DNA of 64,000 bases from Branchiostoma floridae. Its lineage: Eukaryota > Chordata > Leptocardii > Amphioxiformes > Branchiostomatidae. The stretch covers positions 8,014,124-8,078,123 of the forward strand of contig NC_049989.1 of the NCBI RefSeq assembly GCF_000003815.2. Reading direction: 5' to 3'. This document shows positions 6,364 through 64,000 of the stretch, one piece after another (the stretch's first letter is position 1; each line of letters opens with the position of its first letter). Under the pieces are notes generated by a model that was not told the DNA's origin, did not search any database, and saw only the letters and a list, made by a program, of their open reading frames with translations. The position numbers and the translations under genes are program-made.

Positions 6364-6685
6364 ATGGAATTTACAGAAGGTTTCTTGACCAGTGAATCCA
6401 ATGACACCAACATGGATCTTAACACCACCCTCTCCCAAAATTCCACGGGAGATCCAAGTTTGCAGGCTTGGAAACAACCACTATACGTCCGGTACCTTCT
6501 CATCATTGGTTACGCCACCGTTATCCTATTAAACGTCATCGGAAATCCGTTAGTGTGTCTGGTGGTGGCCAAGAACAAAAACATGCGGAACGTCACCAAC
6601 CTCTTCATAACTAACGTGGCCGTCAGTGACTTTCTGGTGGGAGCGATCTGCATGCCATTGGCGTTGGTGGACAACTTGAAAGCAG
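6364..6685 (+). CDS. Receptor 1 exon 1 (N-terminus, TM1, TM2)
   Basis: Encodes residues 1-107 and the first base of codon 108. It carries the glycosylated N-terminus, TM1 (about 42-66) and TM2 (about 78-102). The donor is GCAG|GTATGA at 6685/6686, phase 1. An alternative in-frame ATG at codon 17 would still keep two of the three sequons, so 6364 is chosen for context and length. Confidence 0.9.
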
Positions 6686-8932
6686 GTATGATTAACATGA
6701 ATTTAACATTGTTTTGGTTTTAAATGTACTTTTTCAAACAGAAAGATTTTCGTCCAGTCTTCTTCAGGATAACTGAGGACCCAGTTGCTAAGAACACGTC
6801 ACACCTGCCAGAAGTGTGACGTAAGCAACGAGTCAAAGGTGGTTCCTCGTTGGTACAATGAAGGCTTGATGCTGGTTGATTAATAGTTTAGTGTCAATAC
6901 GCATATTCATATTGTTAATACAGCTTAACCGTGGTATTAAATTTGACGTTAACAAGATGTCTAAAGCTGTTAGTTGTGTTTGGACTTTTAAGCGCTCGCC
7001 ATGTGCAAACGTTAATGCCAGATGGCAGTGGTAATGGTCTCCTCGACATTTCCTTGGACCTGTCTCCTTATAAACTGTGGATAGCGCATTGTGTTTGACA
7101 TTTTAACTAAGTTGCCAGATCTACTTTACCTCACATGCCTCTCTATTACACCTGAGGTGTGATTCCATAAACGGATTGGAAGCCTATTCCTTTCGCTTCG
7201 AAGACGAACGATGCTCAAATTTTCCACTCAACTGATCCTTCGGAATGCTCGTTTGTTGTCCACTAGATCGAAGACAGTTCTGCCATTTTATAGCTGCGAA
7301 TTGATGTAAAAAATCCAAACAACCAGTGCAGTAATATTGCTTTGAACGACATTTTCTCCAATAAAATACCATAAAAGCTAAGTGAAAGAACATGAAATCG
7401 GCTGAAGCCAGCACCATTAAGGGCACCGTTCTATTCGTCATGCAATAGGTTAGCTGTAGAAAAGTGAGGACATTCTTCACACGGTCGTGCATGTCCTGTA
7501 CAAAATTCTACAGGCTTGTGACAGTTAAGATTAACACTGGTCCTTGCCGTACAGTCGTCAGAGCTTCGCTGAAAATCGTCCGACAAAGATCGTACGATTG
7601 GTCGACAAAACATCGCACGACTGCGCCTAAACTACGCCAGCTGATGTTATATTTGCTTACATGTCAGCCGTTTCTTCCCACCTTAGGCTGGGTGTTTGGA
7701 GAAGCGATGTGTACCATCCTCCCAATGATCATGGGGATGACAGTTACTGCCTCGGTGCTCACTCTGGTCGCTATTGCCGTTGACAGGTACGTTAATGAAA
7801 TTTCCTTTCTTATTCAATCATCAGCTATGTTTCTTAAGGACGCATAGGATCCATTAAGGGCGTTGAAAATAGTGTTAATCATATTTTCTTTATGGATGTC
7901 GTATTTGCCATTACTTTCGTTCGAAACTTTTACATCTGTATCTGTATTTATAGAGCCGGTATAATCGCCCTTCGGCGCGATAAATCAGCTTCGCAGGCAC
8001 GCGGCGCGGCAGCAGCTGTTTATATTGCACAACTGTTGTAAGTGCAGCCACATATTTCTAGACACCACAGACTAGAACGGTCTTCCATATAAAACTCTTG
8101 TTGACAACTTTACTTCAGGTACCTGGCCGTTATGAGACCAACTGATGACAAGATCAGCAACAAGATGACCTGTATCGTGATAGCAGCCATCTGGATAGCC
8201 GCTAGCGTCATCATGATCCCTGGTGCCATGATGTCAGAGTACAAAGATGCTGACGGACATCCTACCTGCCACGAGAAGTGGTCCTACGTCGAGAGCAAGC
8301 AGGCGTATTCCGTTTCCCTCTTTGTCTTCTGCTACCTCATCCCACTCTCTGCCATTTCTGGTTTATACCTCCGTGCAGGTGTCCGCCTGTACAACAGAAC
8401 TGTCCACCGCACACCATCACCTAACGACGCCCGACACGAAAGAGGTAACCAGGTCCACAAACTTGGCAACAAGGCCCGCGTGTTTAAGATGATGGTTGCC
8501 GTCGTTGTCCTCTTCGCCTGCCTACACTTACCCATGTATATAGCCAATCTGCTGAATGACCTCGCACCACTTGGAAAACCAGGAAGGACTGTGCTGTACA
8601 AGTACATCTACCCGATTGCACACTGGTTAGCGCACGCCAATAGCTGCATGAACCCTATCGTGTACGCTGTACTGAACAGAAACTTTCGCCAAGGGTTTCG
8701 GCATGCGTTCATGCCACGAAGAACTCGTGGCGTCAACGTGCCGAAGGTGACATACAAAAGAGCGGCAGTGGCTGACCAACCTGACAGAGTGGAGGTCCAC
8801 TGTCGGTTGGGACAGGAGTCTCCCAATGATAGTAGGCTGCAGCGGCCGTTACCGTCACCGGCAACACTCGAGGCGGTCAACCATGACTGTTCACCGGGCG
8901 AACCTCACTTTCTACATGAGGTCAATCAATAG
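6364..8932 (+). CDS. Receptor 1: NPFF/RFamide-type neuropeptide GPCR, three exons, intact
   Basis: Join 6364-6685, 7687-7786, 8119-8932: 1236 nt, 411 residues plus TAG. It should be a seven-helix plasma-membrane receptor coupling a neuropeptide to G proteins. Seen: three N-glycosylation sequons (N13, N20, N26), N1.50 = N61, D2.50 = D89, TM3 Cys C116 and loop-2 Cys C191 for the conserved disulfide, DRY at 140-142, P5.50 = P216, NPIVY at 319-323. The LVDNLKAGW stretch at the TM2/loop-1 junction and YIYPIAHWL in TM7 are NPFF-receptor signatures. D6.59 (D288) is kept. Oddity: H277 occupies 6.48, normally Trp. The ATG at 6364 has A at -3 and G at +4 and follows an in-frame TGA at 6343. Length is normal for the family. 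The RFamide ligand is inferred; a QRFP- or NPY-like ligand is the alternative. Confidence 0.93.
7687..7786 (+). CDS. Receptor 1 exon 2 (loop 1, TM3)
   Basis: 100 bp, acceptor CACCTTAG| and donor GACAG|GTACGT. It encodes the GWVFGEAMC loop-1 segment and TM3 up to the Arg of DRY, whose codon is split (phase 2). Receptor 2 has an exon of the same length and phases. Introns flanking it are 1001 and 332 bp. Confidence 0.9.
8119..8932 (+). CDS. Receptor 1 exon 3 (TM4-TM7 and C-tail)
   Basis: Acceptor TACTTCAG| at 8117-8118. The exon holds TM4, TM5 (FCYLIP), TM6 with the unusual CLHLP, TM7 and a roughly 75-residue tail after LNRNFRQGF. The tail is rich in Pro, Ser and Arg and shows no obvious PDZ-type end. 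The stop is TAG 8930-8932. Confidence 0.92.
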
Positions 8933-18944: not shown

Positions 18945-19690
18945 CAGTTTATCTATATTTATTTATCCAGGAAAGTCACATCGCCTACTGTCAATATGTT
19001 TTACATGGAAACATTTAAACTTTAGTAGCTATGTAAGTAGAAAGATGTGAATTAAATCTGACTGGCTCTGTTACATATACATTGGCTAAATCGCGCTTTT
19101 AGTAACCGTTCCAATTGCCTAGCCCTTGGAAGCTTGATGCCCATGTATACGTTAGGAGAATCCGATGCATACGTGCTGAAATTGACATTGACTAAAGAGC
19201 TGTCACCATGTAATGTGATGACTAGTTACCATGGAAACAGAGCTCCTATTAGTACTCCTCCTTGTTTAAACCATTCCGTAGAACTATTGATTAGTGCTGA
19301 ACGATCACATGTACAGACACTGTGAAAAGAGGGCCCAAAATAGACCCGGTAGATGGAGTTTAACATAGATTGATTCTGTCAAGAGCAAAGCAACAACGTA
19401 CATGCTTTAATTAACTCTGTTACGCCAAGATACACCAGAAGGTCAAGGTACTCACAACTTCTTCTTCTTTCGTTTGAGGCTGCCGCCCTCATCATGTTGA
19501 GGATTCTGCATCCTTTAAATCCCATGAGGTCTGCTGCGTAGGTCGGGAGGGGGGTTGAACTTTTGGACTTAAATGTTGAAAGAGATGTCGAGAGTGCCAC
19601 CTCCGATGGGAGATTATTCCACTCTCTGATCGTACGTGGAATAAAGGTGTTTTGTCTGTATAGTGTTCTACTGGTAGGGATCTGCTATAC
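18945..19690 (-). mobile_element. LINE 3' fragment (end of reverse-transcriptase ORF plus 3' UTR)
   Basis: The - strand frame from about 19690 reads QIPTSRTLYRQNTFIPRTIR, EWNNLPSEVA and FKSKS, the usual C-terminus of non-LTR reverse-transcriptase proteins. It continues open to about 19379. A stop just upstream shows decay. The 3' side ends in a TAAATAAATA tail at about 18955. Non-LTR elements insert as 5'-truncated copies, which fits. Confidence 0.6.
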
Positions 19691-28420: not shown

Positions 28421-29579
28421 AATAAGAGAATGGCCCGTGTATCATACAGTCACACAGCCAAATATAACCTATGCTAGCCCTCCTACCTGGTCACACAGGT
28501 AAAAAAGATAAGAGAATGGTCTGTGAGTCATACGGTCACACAGCCAAAATTAACCTGTGATAAAGCTGGCAGGTGGCACAGGTAGATGAAAGAAGAAAAT
28601 AGTCTGTGAGCCATACGGTCGCACAGCCATAAATAACCTGTGAGTTATACGTTCTCACAGGTAAATAAAAATAAGAAAATGGACTGTGAGTCATACGGTC
28701 GCACAGCCATAAATAACCTGTGAGTTATACGTTCTCACAGGTAAATAAAATTAAGAAAATGGACTGTGAGTTATACGGTCGCACAGCCATAAATAACCTG
28801 TGAGTTATACGTTCTCACAGGTAAATAAAAATAAGAAAATGGTCTGTGAGTCATACGGTCGCACAGCCATAAATAACATGTGAGTTATACGTTCTCACAG
28901 GTAAATAAAAATAAGAAAATGGACTGTGAGTCATACGGTCGCACAGCCATAAATAACCTGTGTTAACCCTTCAAGCAGGTGGCACAGGTAAATAAAAATA
29001 AGAAAATGGTCTGTGAGTCATACGGTCGCACAGCCATAAATAACCTGTGAGTTATACGTTCTCACAGGTAAATAAAAATAAGAAAATGGACTGTGAGTCA
29101 TACGGTCGCACAGCCATAAATAACCTGTGTTAACCCTTCAAGCAGGTGGCACAGGTAAATAAAATTATGAAAATGGACTGTGAGTCATACGGTCGCACAG
29201 CCATAAATAACCTGTGTTAACCCTTCAAGCAGGTCGCACAGGTAAATAAAAATAAGAAAATGGACTGTGAGTCATACGGTCGCACAGCCATAAATAACCT
29301 GTGTTAACCCTTCAAGCAGGTCACAGGTAAATAAAAATAAGAAAATGGACTGTGAGTCATACGGTCGCACAGCCATAAATAACATGTGAGTTATACGTTC
29401 TCACAGGTAAATAAAAATAAGAAAATGGACTGTGAGTCATACGGTCGCACAGCCATAAATAACCTGAGTTAACCCTTCAAGCAGGTGGCCCAGGTAAATA
29501 ATATAAGAGGATGGTCTATGAGTCAAACGGTCGATCAGTCAATTATAACCTGTGAGTTATACATTTACACAGATAAATG
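28421..29579. repeat. 80/87-bp minisatellite with two dyads per unit, about 14 units
   Basis: Unit: CTGTGAGTCATACGGTCGCA CAG, then CCATAAATAA, then CCTGTGAG to CTCACAGG (a dyad), then TAAATAAAAATAAGAAAATG. The regular step is 80 (28681, 28761, 28841, 28921). A variant unit replaces the second dyad with TGTTAACCCTTCAAGCAGG and is 87 bp. The first units are diverged, the middle ones nearly identical. Confidence 0.92.
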
Positions 29580-30027
29580 GGTAGCTGGTTTCACCTGCCG
29601 AACAATCCTTCTGGGAACTGAATTGTTACATTTTTACTACTTGAATTCTTCGTTTCTTCTCAGGCGACACCAACTTTTTAGGGAGTGAAATCACACCAGT
29701 GGCTATAATGATCTCCCAATCGGTTAAGCAACATGAAAGTTGTGGTGCATATTTTTTAAACATTATAGGGGTTGTGAAAAATGAAGGAACCAGTGATGTT
29801 GTCTAATTTGCTCCATATCAAGTCATAAAGGCAGGCGACAGCATTTTTTACATTTCAATAAGAACGAGCCTAATGTGTCCCTGCCTTTGTTTCCACCCTG
29901 TAGACAGTCTGGGATTTCTAATAAATCTATGTATTTATAGGGTACAATTCACCCTTGTAGCTACTGGGATGGTCACAGTAGGGAATACTTCCTTGGTACT
30001 TTACCCAGGGAACACGGGATTCCTGTT
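29580..30027. other. Unique spacer between two related minisatellites
   Basis: About 450 bp with no unit of the array. No inverted ends or target duplication seen, so whether it was inserted or the arrays grew separately is open. Confidence 0.45.
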
Positions 30028-31575
30028 TAAGAGAATGGTCTAAGAGTCACACAGTCATTGACCCAAAATAACCCGTGGTAACCCTCCTATCAGGTCGCAC
30101 AGGTAAATAGAATAAGAGAATGGTCTGTGAGCCATACGACCACACAGCAAATTATACATGTAAGTCCTACTTTCGGACAGGTAAATAGAATAAGAGAATG
30201 GTCTGTGAGCCATACGACCACACAGCCAAATTATACATGTAAGTCCTACTTTCGGACAGGTAAATAGAATAAGAGAATGGTCTGTGAGCCATTCAGCCAC
30301 ACAGCCGAAATATAACCTGTAAGTCCTACTTTTGCACAGGTAAATAGAATAAGAGAATGGTCTGTGAGTCATACGGTCACACAGCCAATATATAACATGT
30401 GAGTCCTACTTTCGCACAGGTAAATAGAATAAGAGAATGGTCTGTGAGCCATACGACCACACAGCCAAATTATACATGTAAGTCCTACTTTCGGACAGGT
30501 AAATAGAATAAGAGAATGGTCTGTGAGTCATACGACCACACAGCCAAATTATACATGTAAGTCCTACTTTCGGACAGGTAAATAGAATAAGAGAATGGTC
30601 TGTGAGCCATACGACCACACAGCCAAATTATACATGTAAGTCCTACTTTCGGACAGGTAAATAGAATAAGAGAATGGTCTGTGAGCCATACGACCACACA
30701 GCCAAATTATACATGTAAGTCCTACTTTCGGACAGGTAAATAGAATAAGAGAATGGTCTGTGAGCCATACGACCACACAGCCAAATTATACATGTAAGTC
30801 CTACTTTCGCACAGGTAAATAGAATAAGAGAATGGTCTGTGAGTCATACGACCACACAGCCAAATTATACATGTAAGTCCTACTTTCGGACAGGTAAATA
30901 GAATAAGAGAATGGTCTGTGAGCCATTCAGCCACACAGCCGAAATATAACCTGTAAGTCCTACTTTTGCACAGGTAAATAGAATAAGAGAATGGTCTGTG
31001 AGTCATACGGTCACACAGCCAATATATAACATGTGAGTCCTACTTTCGCACAGGTAAATAGAATAAGAGAATGGTCTGTGAGCCATACGACCACACAGCC
31101 AAATTATACATGTAAGTCCTACTTTCGGACAGGTAAATAGAATAAGAGAATGGTCTGTGAGCCATTCAGCCACACAGCCAATATATAACATGTGAGTCCT
31201 ACTTTCGCACAGGTAAATAGAATAAGGGAATGGTCTGTGAGCCATTCAGCCACACAGCCGAAATATAACATGTGAGTCCTACTTTCGCATAGGATAATAG
31301 AATAAAAGAATGGTCTGTGAGTCATACGGTCACACAGCCAATATATAACATGTGAGTCCTACTTTCGCACAGGTAAATAGAACAAGAGAATGGTCTGAGA
31401 GCCATACAGCCACACAGCCGAAATATAACATGTGGGTCCTACTTTCGCATAGGTAAATAGAATAAAAGAATGGTCTGTGAGTCATACGGTCACACAGCCT
31501 AAACATAACCTGTGAGTCATACTTTCGCACCGGTAAATAGAAAAGAAGAAAAATGGTCTGTACGGTGACACATTT
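30028..31575. repeat. 79-bp minisatellite, same family, about 19 units
   Basis: Step 79. Unit: GAGAATGGTCTGTGAGYCAT, ACGRYCACACAGCC, an (A/C)ATGTAAG or ATGTGAG segment, TCCTACTTTCGCACAGG, TAAATAGAATAA. It shares the AGAATGGTCTGTGAGTCATA core with the 28421-29579 array but has a different second half. Subtypes with GGACAGG and GCACAGG alternate, which points to higher-order homogenisation. A stray half-unit lies at about 31628-31652. The - strand frames of 60-105 codons seen here are artefacts of the step not being a multiple of three. Confidence 0.92.
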
Positions 31576-41022: not shown

Positions 41023-41789
41023 CTAGTTGGGCACCTCATCCATAGCTGTTCCCGGTGTTGTGGGGGTAGCTCGCCGCTGCCGACTTTCATCAGGGGTTAC
41101 AAGTGTCAGCCGACACTGGGCCCTGTCCTGTCGTGCACGACCGCCTTGCCTTTTGTAATCTACTTTGGGTGTTTGAGCTCCGCTGTACTTTTTAGTCTTG
41201 ACGAAGGCTTTGATAAACCCTTGTCGGAAGTTCCTGTTCAGGAACGCGTACAAAATGGGGTTCACACAACTGTTGGCAAACGCCAGCCAGTGGGCAACCG
41301 GGTAGATGTACGTGTACAAGACCACACCTAACTCTTTCGTAGGCGTTGCGAAGTCGTTTAGCAGGGTTGCGACCCACAGAGGCAAGTGCAGAGATGCAAA
41401 CAGGGCAACGACGGCCACCATCATTCTAAAGATACGGACGTTAGCGGGTCTGTTAGCAGTTTGGGTCTTAGTGGAAAGCTGGGAGACTTGTTCTGCCGTG
41501 CGGTTGCGTCTCGCGCTTCTTTTGTACAGACGGAACCCAGCACGGAGATACAGACCAGTTATGGCCGTGAGGGGGACTAGATAGCAGATAACGAACAGGG
41601 ACATAGTGTACGCTTGCTTGCTCTCCAGTGAAGACCAAGTCTCGTAGCAGGTAGGGTTGCCGTCATGGTCCTTGTACTGCGGCTGACGGAATCATCACAG
41701 CACAGGCGATTCCCCAGATGGTCGCGATGATGACTGACATTGTCTTCTTGTTCAGTTTGCCATCCGTTGGTTTCATCACAGCTAAGTAC
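41023..41789 (-). CDS. Receptor 2 exon 3, frame broken near 41677-41684
   Basis: Acceptor TTCTCCAG| at 41791-41790. The first part (TM4) reads in the frame of exon 2 and stops at 41663. The second part, loop 2 to C-terminus, reads in the next frame. The tail after LNRNFRQGF is about 70 residues, rich in Arg, Thr and Pro, and shares a PKVxYKR motif with receptor 1. Confidence 0.85.
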
Positions 41790-42207
41790 CTGGAGAATAG
41801 CACAATACTATGGTTCCACACAATTCTTTCCATCCCGAAGCATTTTTCTACATAATGTTGGTTTTAAATATTCATTCTGGTTGTTGCTTTAGGGTGTAAA
41901 CGGATACCTGGTTACTTAATTTTGTCCATTAGCGTCCGAACACATAGATTTGTAAGTAGCTAATCTTTCTAAACATAAGTATGGATATACGAAATACATG
42001 CACAGCTAATATTCAGATTACTGTACAAGAAGCTCCTGTCAAGACTTTCTAGCGGATTGTATGCTATTTGGCAAAATGTTTCATACAGACATGGACCTGT
42101 ATATGAAAGTCTTTTTGTAGCATTTCTTTTTTACTCCATTAGTCTGAATGTGCTTCTGCTGGCATAGCGTGCCCTGTGAGCATGGTGTGTGAATTGAATG
42201 AGATTAC

Positions 42208-42307
42208 CTGTCAATAGCAATGGCCACTAGAGTATACACGGACCCCACTATCGCCATGCCCATCAGCATAGGTAGGATTGTGCACATCACCTCTCCAAAC
42301 ACCCAGC
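42208..42307 (-). CDS. Receptor 2 exon 2 (loop 1, TM3)
   Basis: Exactly 100 bp, acceptor TTCCACAG| and donor GACAG|GTAATC. Encodes GWVFGEVMC and TM3 up to the split Arg codon of DRY. Flanking introns are 882 and 418 bp. Confidence 0.9.
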
Positions 42308-43189: not shown

Positions 43190-43454
43190 CTGATTTCAAG
43201 TTGTTCACCAGAGTAAACGGCATGCATATTCCACCCACGAAGAAGTCACTCAAGGCCACATTCACGATGAAGAAGTTGGTGACGTTCCACATGTTTTTGT
43301 TCTTCGCCACCACCAGACACACCAGCGGGTTCCCAACAATGTTCAACAAGAACACGGCGCCGTAGCCAATGATTATAAGGCATCGGACGTATAACGGCTG
43401 TTTCCAACCGGTCAGATCCGTGCCATTCAATGGGAAACTGAAATTTGTGTCCAT
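43190..43454 (-). CDS. Receptor 2 exon 1 (N-terminus, TM1, TM2)
   Basis: 88 codons plus one base, donor TCAG|GTAAAG, phase 1 as in receptor 1. Shares GWKQPLYVR before TM1 and KNKNMWNVTN in intracellular loop 1 with its paralogue, but has LVNNLKSG where receptor 1 has LVDNLKAG. Confidence 0.9.
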
Positions 43455-55659: not shown

Positions 55660-56010
55660 GTTTTTTACAGAATATTATCAGTGTTAAGATATTTAAGCAG
55701 TCGATTGTAAACTAGCCTTTCATACTGTTTTGACATGCTGGGCAAGACTGAAATCGGTCTATAGTTGGGTCTCCCTCCTTGAACATGGGTATAAACTTAG
55801 CAATCTTTGTTCCGGTTGGAACATCTACACTTAGTACTGACATGTTAAGAATATGAGTTAGAGGAGTAAGGATGTGGGGAAGGGCTGATCTTAGGGCTTT
55901 CGATTTAATTTCGTCATAACCAGCGGCAGAGTCTTTTAAGTTTAAAACAATTTCCTCTACCTCTTTGGTCGTGTTAGAAGGAGACCGCGGCAATCGTTGG
56001 AAGTCAGGAG
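55660..56010 (-). mobile_element. LINE reverse-transcriptase fragment (fingers region)
   Basis: The - strand frame reads EVEEIVLNLKDSAAGYDEI, ALPHILTPLTHILNMS, KIAKFIPMFKEGDPT, then after a one-base frameshift NYRPISVLPSMSKQYERLVY. This is the N-terminal reverse-transcriptase region of a non-LTR element (motifs 0 to 2). The rest of the element is not seen. Confidence 0.75.
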
Positions 56011-56684
56011 AGAAAAGATTTGAAAATGGATGAGAAAGGTAGGGGAACTTTTAGTGTTAGCGTTAAGGTGAGATGTTAACGTGTTGGGCTTAATCTCTGA
56101 CATGGGGTCTTAAGCTTCAAGAATTCTACATCCCTTCTGAAATTGGTAAGATTCCCGAACAGCTTAGCTCTCATTTGATACATATATCAACCAAACACCC
56201 CAGAGCATCAGTCCCGCAATATCATAGAACTAGTGATTACTTCATCAGCTTACATCACCTACACAAACAACTACTTTGTGGTAAAAAAAATCGATCATTC
56301 CCCACACATAGTCAAACGCCATAACAAACTACCTACTAATGCGGCAAAGAAATCCTAAGAAAGAACTGCAACCAGCAGAACTACAGCACTCCATCAAAAG
56401 AACTAAGTCCTTTCAAACAGAACAAAAACAAACTTCAACCACCACACGATCAGCTATTTCACGGAGGTCTCCGAACGTTTGTTGTCCTTTGTGATGCAAA
56501 GTGGGGTCCCATGTTCTGGAGAGTTCTACGCGGAGTCCTCCCTTCCGGTTTAAGGTGGGGTTGTAGATTCGCTCGTAGATGGCCTCCCTGGCTCCCCGTT
56601 TGGACCACCGTGGTACGAATCATTCAACCAGTCTGTCTAGTTATCTGTACGTGTATTGAATTGTTCTGTCAGTTCATTCAAGTG

Positions 56685-63471: not shown

Positions 63472-64000
63472 TTAGACTGCGGTTTCCAGTATACGTGGTA
63501 CATGCACTTCGCGGGAGGACACGTTTGGAACAGATTTCATCTTGATATGGCCAATCAGTGTTGAGCCAGTTGTAGACAGAGAGGTGCTGTTGGTAATGCC
63601 ATGGGGACTTTCTATGACAGCGGTGGTGAGTAGGAGCGTGGCCGGTCGCACTGCTCGAGTTGGGCGGTCACCTGCCGTTGCTGTTGTCTGGCTCATCGGA
63701 GTTGGCATGTGTGAACGGTCACAGTCGTTCGAAATCCTCCGTGTTTTACTAAGATCAGGTGTCTCCACGTGCAGTTTTGGTTTTTGCCTTCTTCTTTGCT
63801 TCCACACGAAAGAACACGTGCACGCGTTGGACGTGCTTGACGTTCTGTTGTTCCAAAACGCAGCCCGAAAACCTTTCCGAAAGTTTCTGTTCAGCAGGGC
63901 ATAGACGAAGGGGTTAACACACGTGTGAATGAACATAAGCCAGTGGCTGACTGGGAAGGCGTACGCATAGATAGGTCTCTTCTCAACGTCATTCAAGCTT
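63472..64000 (-). CDS. Receptor 3: NPFF/RFamide-type GPCR, 3' end only
   Basis: Partial; the gene continues past the window edge. About 175 codons are seen, ending TAA at 63474-63472. They start at the top of TM6/loop 3 (SLND, so D6.59 is present), then TM7 with YAFPVSHWL, NPFVY and LLNRNFRKGF, close to receptors 1 and 2. The C-tail of about 130 residues is longer than theirs and rich in Ser, Thr, Pro and basic residues, with a CTC pair that could be palmitoylated. No intron lies in this part, as expected if TM4 to the tail is a single exon. Residue 6.48 lies just outside the window. Confidence 0.85.
   Translation of the reverse strand, partial: SLNDVEKRPIYAYAFPVSHWLMFIHTCVNPFVYALLNRNFRKGFRAAFWNNRTSSTSNACTCSFVWKQRRRQKPKLHVETPDLSKTRRISNDCDRSHMPTPMSQTTATAGDRPTRAVRPATLLLTTAVIESPHGITNSTSLSTTGSTLIGHIKMKSVPNVSSREVHVPRILETAV

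Follow-up and report, generated by a model that had tools for sequence, protein, structure and literature searches.

Whether the toggle tryptophan W6.48 drives the activation of class A receptors or merely tunes it is disputed (PMC12814323, PMC3610275). According to these two papers, W6.48 is present in 68% of class A receptors (PMC12814323), and in the non-olfactory receptors of the class in 78%, compared with 71% for C6.47 and 98% for P6.50 (PMC3610275). These figures do not agree with the initial annotation of the locus described here, in which W6.48 was ranked with the residues of class A that are conserved most strongly. They imply that a residue other than Trp is not rare class-wide; it is rare within the NPFF-receptor family.

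The role of the residue has been described for several class A receptors. In NPFFR2, Q3.32 is reported to bond the terminal amide of the peptide and V3.36 to touch the peptide's Phe, and TM3 to rise by about 2 Å, upon which F6.44 and W6.48 shift and the inner side opens (PMC12069643). In QRFPR the terminal Phe of the ligand was described as touching W6.48 directly, and mutagenesis indicated that RF-amide receptors need Q3.32 (PMC11148045; for the latter also PMC13107563). Roles around the Arg and the amide have been assigned to E45.52, D/E6.59 and H/Q7.39 (PMC13107563, PMC11148045). According to its authors, Y1R devoid of W6.48 still signals, in a manner that they call detuned (PMC12814323). 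The W6.48F replacement in A3 was reported to impair G-protein coupling and to introduce bias (PMC4128046), thus loss of the Trp is not free everywhere. In amphioxus the NPFF receptors, with 39 sequences, constitute the largest Rhodopsin expansion in a published survey (PMC2246102), and two amphioxus receptors of NPFF/GnIH type have been described, of which PQRFa-R1 lowered cAMP signalling and PQRFa-R2 gave no response in the reported assays (PMC4077772).

Receptor 1 and its histidine at position 6.48

The window, a stretch of 64,000 nucleotides of Branchiostoma floridae DNA (C11:8014124-8078123), contains long tandem arrays at 28421-31546, with related units of about 80, 167 and 239 bases; at 30095-31546 a 79-base unit is repeated 18 times. 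It also contains two short open frames on the minus strand (19379-19684 and 55712-56050) that by eye resemble reverse-transcriptase remnants.

Receptor 1 (R1) is encoded on the plus strand by three exons with GT-AG borders. Coding exon 1 (6364..6685), an open frame followed by a GT donor at 6686 and matching NPFF receptors in phmmer, extends from the N-terminus to the end of TM2/ECL1. Exon 2 (7687..7786; AG acceptor at 7685-7686, GT donor at 7787) carries TM3 with M3.32, V3.36 and the DR of DRY, and exon 3 (8119..8932), identified by Pfam 7tm_1, runs from TM4 to the C-terminus and ends with a TAG stop at 8930-8932. Joined together, the exons encode 411 residues without an intervening stop codon; the gene is intact, in keeping with the earlier statement that the rest of the receptor looks functional. 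Exon 3 matched PF00001 (7tm_1) with an E value of 2.5e-28, and R1 has the class A landmarks N1.50, D2.50, DRY, W4.50, P5.50, P6.50 and NPIVY (as NPxxY). The CWxP toggle of TM6, which is common in class A though not universal, is absent: R1 and a second receptor of the window, R2, read LHLP.

When R1 was compared by phmmer with all solved structures, NPFFR2 (E 7.6e-66) and NPFFR1 (E 4.4e-62) were the best relatives, and the first seven distinct sequences among the matches listed were all one or the other of these two; PrRP, NPY Y2 and orexin receptors came after them. The residues surrounding Arg and amide in RF-amide receptors are present in R1 as E45.52, D6.59 and H7.39. The amide-holding Q3.32 is replaced by Met in R1 and R2, and it is present in the related receptors R3, L012 and L041 described below. 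Since Q3.32 is missing in R1 and R2, and T2.61 also in R1, the ligand may not be an RF-amide; judged from its sequence, R1 is therefore regarded as NPFF-receptor-like by kinship and is not filed as an RF-amide receptor.

The 6.48 codon of R1 is CAC (8525..8527, plus strand), which encodes H277 in the motif LFACLHLP. In the phmmer alignments H277 stood opposite the Trp of NPFFR2 (9m54) and NPFFR1 (9m0r), and because these alignments are gap-free over the whole of TM6 and TM7, no other residue fits position 6.48. The initial annotation had read His at this position with P6.50 and F6.44 retained (P279 and F273) and had stated that vertebrate NPFF receptors have Trp; the alignment bears out both readings, the latter for the two solved receptors that were compared.

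All loci considered in this work come from one assembly, and the His could in principle be an artefact of sequencing error, misalignment or gene conversion. No point in favour of this explanation was found. The replacement of TGG by CAC or CAT takes three base changes and CAC is also found in R2 and at two further loci, thus the codon is not a point error or a single variant. The codons flanking it differ silently on both sides between R1 and R2, which disfavours recent gene conversion, and the gap-free alignment to NPFFR1 and NPFFR2 speaks against misalignment. Taking these observations together, an artefact appears extremely unlikely.

Among open-licence PMC papers no mention of His at 6.48 (H6.48 or His6.48) was found, W6.48H did not occur among the published W6.48 mutants examined there, and none of the papers listed there for amphioxus or Branchiostoma in connection with 6.48 or the toggle switch concerned NPFF receptors, as judged by title. 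What stands out is the loss of Trp inside the NPFF-receptor family, together with His as its substitute.

Five related genes on one contig

The occurrence of residues at 6.48 was surveyed in the assembly that contains the window, which has 513,431,437 bases and 431 contigs. R1 exon 3, used as query, found 134 places at E values up to 1e-3. The number of genes is lower, since some places represent additional exons of a gene already matched. Position 6.48 was read at 42 of these places (40 with flanks and two over TM6 only; 92 unread) and was W at 36, H at four, F at one and Y at one. The Tyr belongs to a separate NPFF-receptor-like gene, L034 (C3:23976365-23983440), which also has F6.52 and N7.39. 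All four His loci use CAC and lie on the same contig: R1 (L009), R2 (L010), L041 (C11, 10.47 Mb) and L012 (C11, 10.69 Mb). L012 and L041 have an apparent extra intron after ECL2 without counterpart in R1 and R3, and L041 an apparent additional intron near the start of TM6.

Receptor 2 lies on the minus strand of the window. Its coding exon 1 (43190..43454) begins with a start codon chosen by eye, exon 2 (42208..42307) carries M3.32 and I3.36, and exon 3 (41023..41789) contains the 6.48 codon CAC (41386..41388) in the motif LFASLHLP. In the assembly the frame of exon 3 is broken near 41677-41687, both halves being otherwise conserved. Between the end of TM4 and the residues YKD on the ECL2 side (41640-41800, minus strand) the exon is 8 bases shorter than that of R1, as counted by hand, and has an early TGA. 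The break may be allelic, may stem from faulty assembly or may be a sign of decay, thus R2, as one of the four genes with His, may be degenerating.

The fifth gene, Receptor 3 (R3; locus L003/L011, C11:8077455-8084548), is on the same contig and extends beyond the window. The part inside it (63832..64000, minus strand) comprises ECL3, TM7 with H7.45, and helix 8; TM6 lies just past the window end and has Phe (TTC) at 6.48. The His of R3 thus stands next to the position, 6.48, at which its sisters carry theirs; at two other loci, L016 and L039, H7.45 is combined with W6.48.

To relate these genes to each other, a tree was built from 40 rows over 300 columns, from which 6.47, 6.48, 3.32 and 3.36 were omitted. 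The rows were tblastn matches projected onto R1 positions (at 23.50 the R1 row shows M from intron read-through, the true residue being W109), and two of the 40 flanked loci, L046 and L048, both without H7.39, served as outgroup. R1, R2, R3, L012 and L041 formed one clade with a support of 99/97.8, within which R1 grouped with R2 (100/99), L012 with L041 (99/94), and R3 with R1 and R2 (91/86). In a tree of 34 rows, built without the long or gappy rows L024, L038, L040, L042, L044 and L047 and again without the trait columns, the corresponding values were 100/97 for the five-gene clade and 93/87 for R3 with R1 and R2. A grouping of the four His genes without R3 was not rejected (p-AU 0.0503 with 40 rows and 0.126 with 34 rows).

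On the 40-row tree at least three changes of state are needed at 6.48. Read by hand, and by parsimony, this count would correspond to a replacement of Trp by His in the ancestor of the clade, a later change of that His to Phe in R3, and an independent replacement of Trp by Tyr in L034. The sequences thus fit a single loss of Trp, which probably took place in the common ancestor of the five genes. Given the Phe of R3, members of the clade do not need His at 6.48. When L012 was used as query, exactly these five C11 genes ranked first, followed by Trp-bearing relatives, therefore no large further set without Trp is expected, with 92 of the 134 places unread. The clade is taken to be one branch of the 39-sequence amphioxus expansion. 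The change had originally been described as a feature of Receptor 1; the residue was confirmed, but that description was too narrow, since the trait belongs to a clade of five genes and is accompanied by changes at neighbouring positions.

The dN/dS ratio between R1 and R2 was 0.153 over 287 codons and varied from 0.148 to 0.186 by gene part. For nine of the ten pairs in the clade it was 0.14-0.37, at a dS that is near saturated, the R2/R3 pair being beyond saturation. There is purifying selection between the paralogues, and His was kept through near-saturated synonymous divergence. The suggestion that the change is tolerated is supported by the retention of His in four paralogues and by the R1/R2 ratio (0.15-0.19). 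A change in activation or basal activity, which the initial annotation also raised, may accompany it.

These values also bear on the possibility that normal signalling no longer exists in the clade, with 6.48 drifting freely in relaxed or decaying receptors. Such decay could account for the frame of R2, broken between TM4 and ECL2, and for the further difference of R3 at 6.48. It is, however, difficult to reconcile with the intact R1 gene, with the low dN/dS at near-saturated dS, with the retention of CAC in four genes whose flanking codons differ silently between R1 and R2, and with the conservation of DR, F6.44, P6.50 and the NPxxY residues in all five genes. We consider it improbable.

Residues that changed with position 6.48 and residues that stayed

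The five clade rows were compared with the other 35, of which 30 were readable at 3.32 and 29 at 3.36, and 14 were unread at 2.57. Of the 35 other rows 34 have Trp at 6.48, whereas no clade row does, and Leu occupies 6.47 in all five compared with 3/35 elsewhere. Residue 3.36 faces 6.48 in the receptor fold. It is V, I, M, Y and Y in R1, R2, R3, L012 and L041, respectively, that is, other than Val in four of the five, compared with three of the 29 readable others (Val in 26/29). Position 7.43 is His in R1 and Phe in R2, R3, L012 and L041, and Tyr predominates among the other rows (25/35). E45.52, D6.59, H7.39, F6.44, P6.50, N7.49, P7.50 and Y7.53, as well as DR at 3.49-3.50, were kept in all five genes. 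Taking into account that the outer and inner residues are conserved and that 6.47, 3.36 and 7.43 are altered, these observations show that the signalling path has remained stable at both ends and that the layer between them has been rebuilt.

Other replacements are confined to part of the clade. Met at 3.32 occurs in R1 and R2 only, Q being present in 22 of the 30 readable rows outside the clade (the V recorded for L035 comes from a weak match), and R1 alone has A2.61, where T is found in 19 of 21 readable others, and H7.43, which occurs in none of the 39 other rows. A coupled swap, in which loss of Q3.32 accompanied gain of H6.48, was ruled out by L012 and L041, which have H6.48 with Q3.32. 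A site of three His residues as a clade-wide basis was weakened by the restriction of H7.43 to R1.

The partial replacements could indicate that the ligand of the clade, or of its R1/R2 branch, has another peptide end or is not a peptide at all, and that the His is a ligand contact rather than a moving switch. The exchange of the amide-holding Gln for M3.32, together with A2.61 and H7.43, would fit such a change of ligand, as would the contact reported in QRFPR between W6.48 and the terminal Phe (PMC11148045). The lack of response of amphioxus PQRFa-R2 to PQRFa peptides, to which PQRFa-R1 responded in the same report, may point in the same direction (PMC4077772). On the other hand, E45.52, D6.59 and H7.39, placed around Arg and amide, are kept in all five genes, and L012, L041 and R3 retain Q3.32, which shows that its loss is not tied to His6.48. 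A new ligand as the explanation of the His is therefore considered unlikely, if less so than decay.

Proposed working of the His receptors and comparison with known receptors

The five genes are probably best explained as NPFF-receptor-like class A receptors descended from an ancestor that had lost W6.48. Most of them carry His there, and they would still function as peptide receptors by means of a switch that is smaller and polar. The conserved outer pocket of R1 would most likely bind an amidated, arginine-bearing peptide, and the signal would cross the rebuilt middle layer through H6.48, L6.47 and the altered 3.36 partner. H6.48 would then move F6.44, and TM6 would open in the ordinary way, that is, coupling would be normal. 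The His may be held by hydrogen bonds to its neighbours, comparable to Q6.48 of CCR6, CCR7 and CCR9; the likeliest partner would be N7.45 in R1 and R2, and perhaps Y3.36 in L012 and L041. Structure models, obtained for R1 exon 3 alone (pLDDT 50.9, pTM 0.29) and for TM4 to helix 8 with R2 as second row (pLDDT 48.5, pTM 0.28), were too poor to use.

If the charge or hydrogen bonding of H6.48 in the clade can be tuned, pH or a metal ion might set the ease of activation. In R1, three His (6.48, 7.39 and 7.43) would lie along one side of the pocket floor and might together make up a proton or metal site. We regard such tuning as improbable; if true, it would mean that protons or metal ions tune the toggle of a neuropeptide receptor.

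In the clade the toggle Trp has been replaced naturally, by His in four members and by Phe in one, which does not in itself amount to a new mechanism. It offers a natural experiment, with probably one loss of Trp giving four His and one Phe, to be set against 36 places with Trp in one genome. Single-residue swaps between close paralogues, in which the path ends are unchanged, could probe the role of the toggle.

Receptors that function without the toggle Trp are known from other branches: GPR4 and the delta branch have F, Y or L at 6.48 and MrgD has Ser, and His is not reported for them in the available text of the two papers (PMC12134361, PMC9287403). A polar residue in place of the Trp has been described in CCR6, CCR7 and CCR9, working class A receptors with Gln at 6.48 (PMC7295996). 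These are chemokine receptors, in CCR6 the ligand is reported to bind shallowly, and the residue is Gln, not His, so the likeness to R1 is one of analogy, not kinship. The combination of Q6.48, Y3.32 and N6.52 that characterizes their toggle is not present in R1, which has H6.48, M3.32 and Y6.52; what they have in common is no more than the principle of a polar toggle. The closest solved relatives over TM1 to helix 8 are NPFFR2 and NPFFR1 (GPR74 and GPR147), with which R1 shares E45.52, D6.59, H7.39, C2.57 and V3.36, and from which it differs in having His instead of Trp at 6.48, Met instead of Gln at 3.32, Ala instead of Thr at 2.61, Leu instead of Ser at 6.47, Tyr instead of Trp at 6.52 and His instead of Phe at 7.43.
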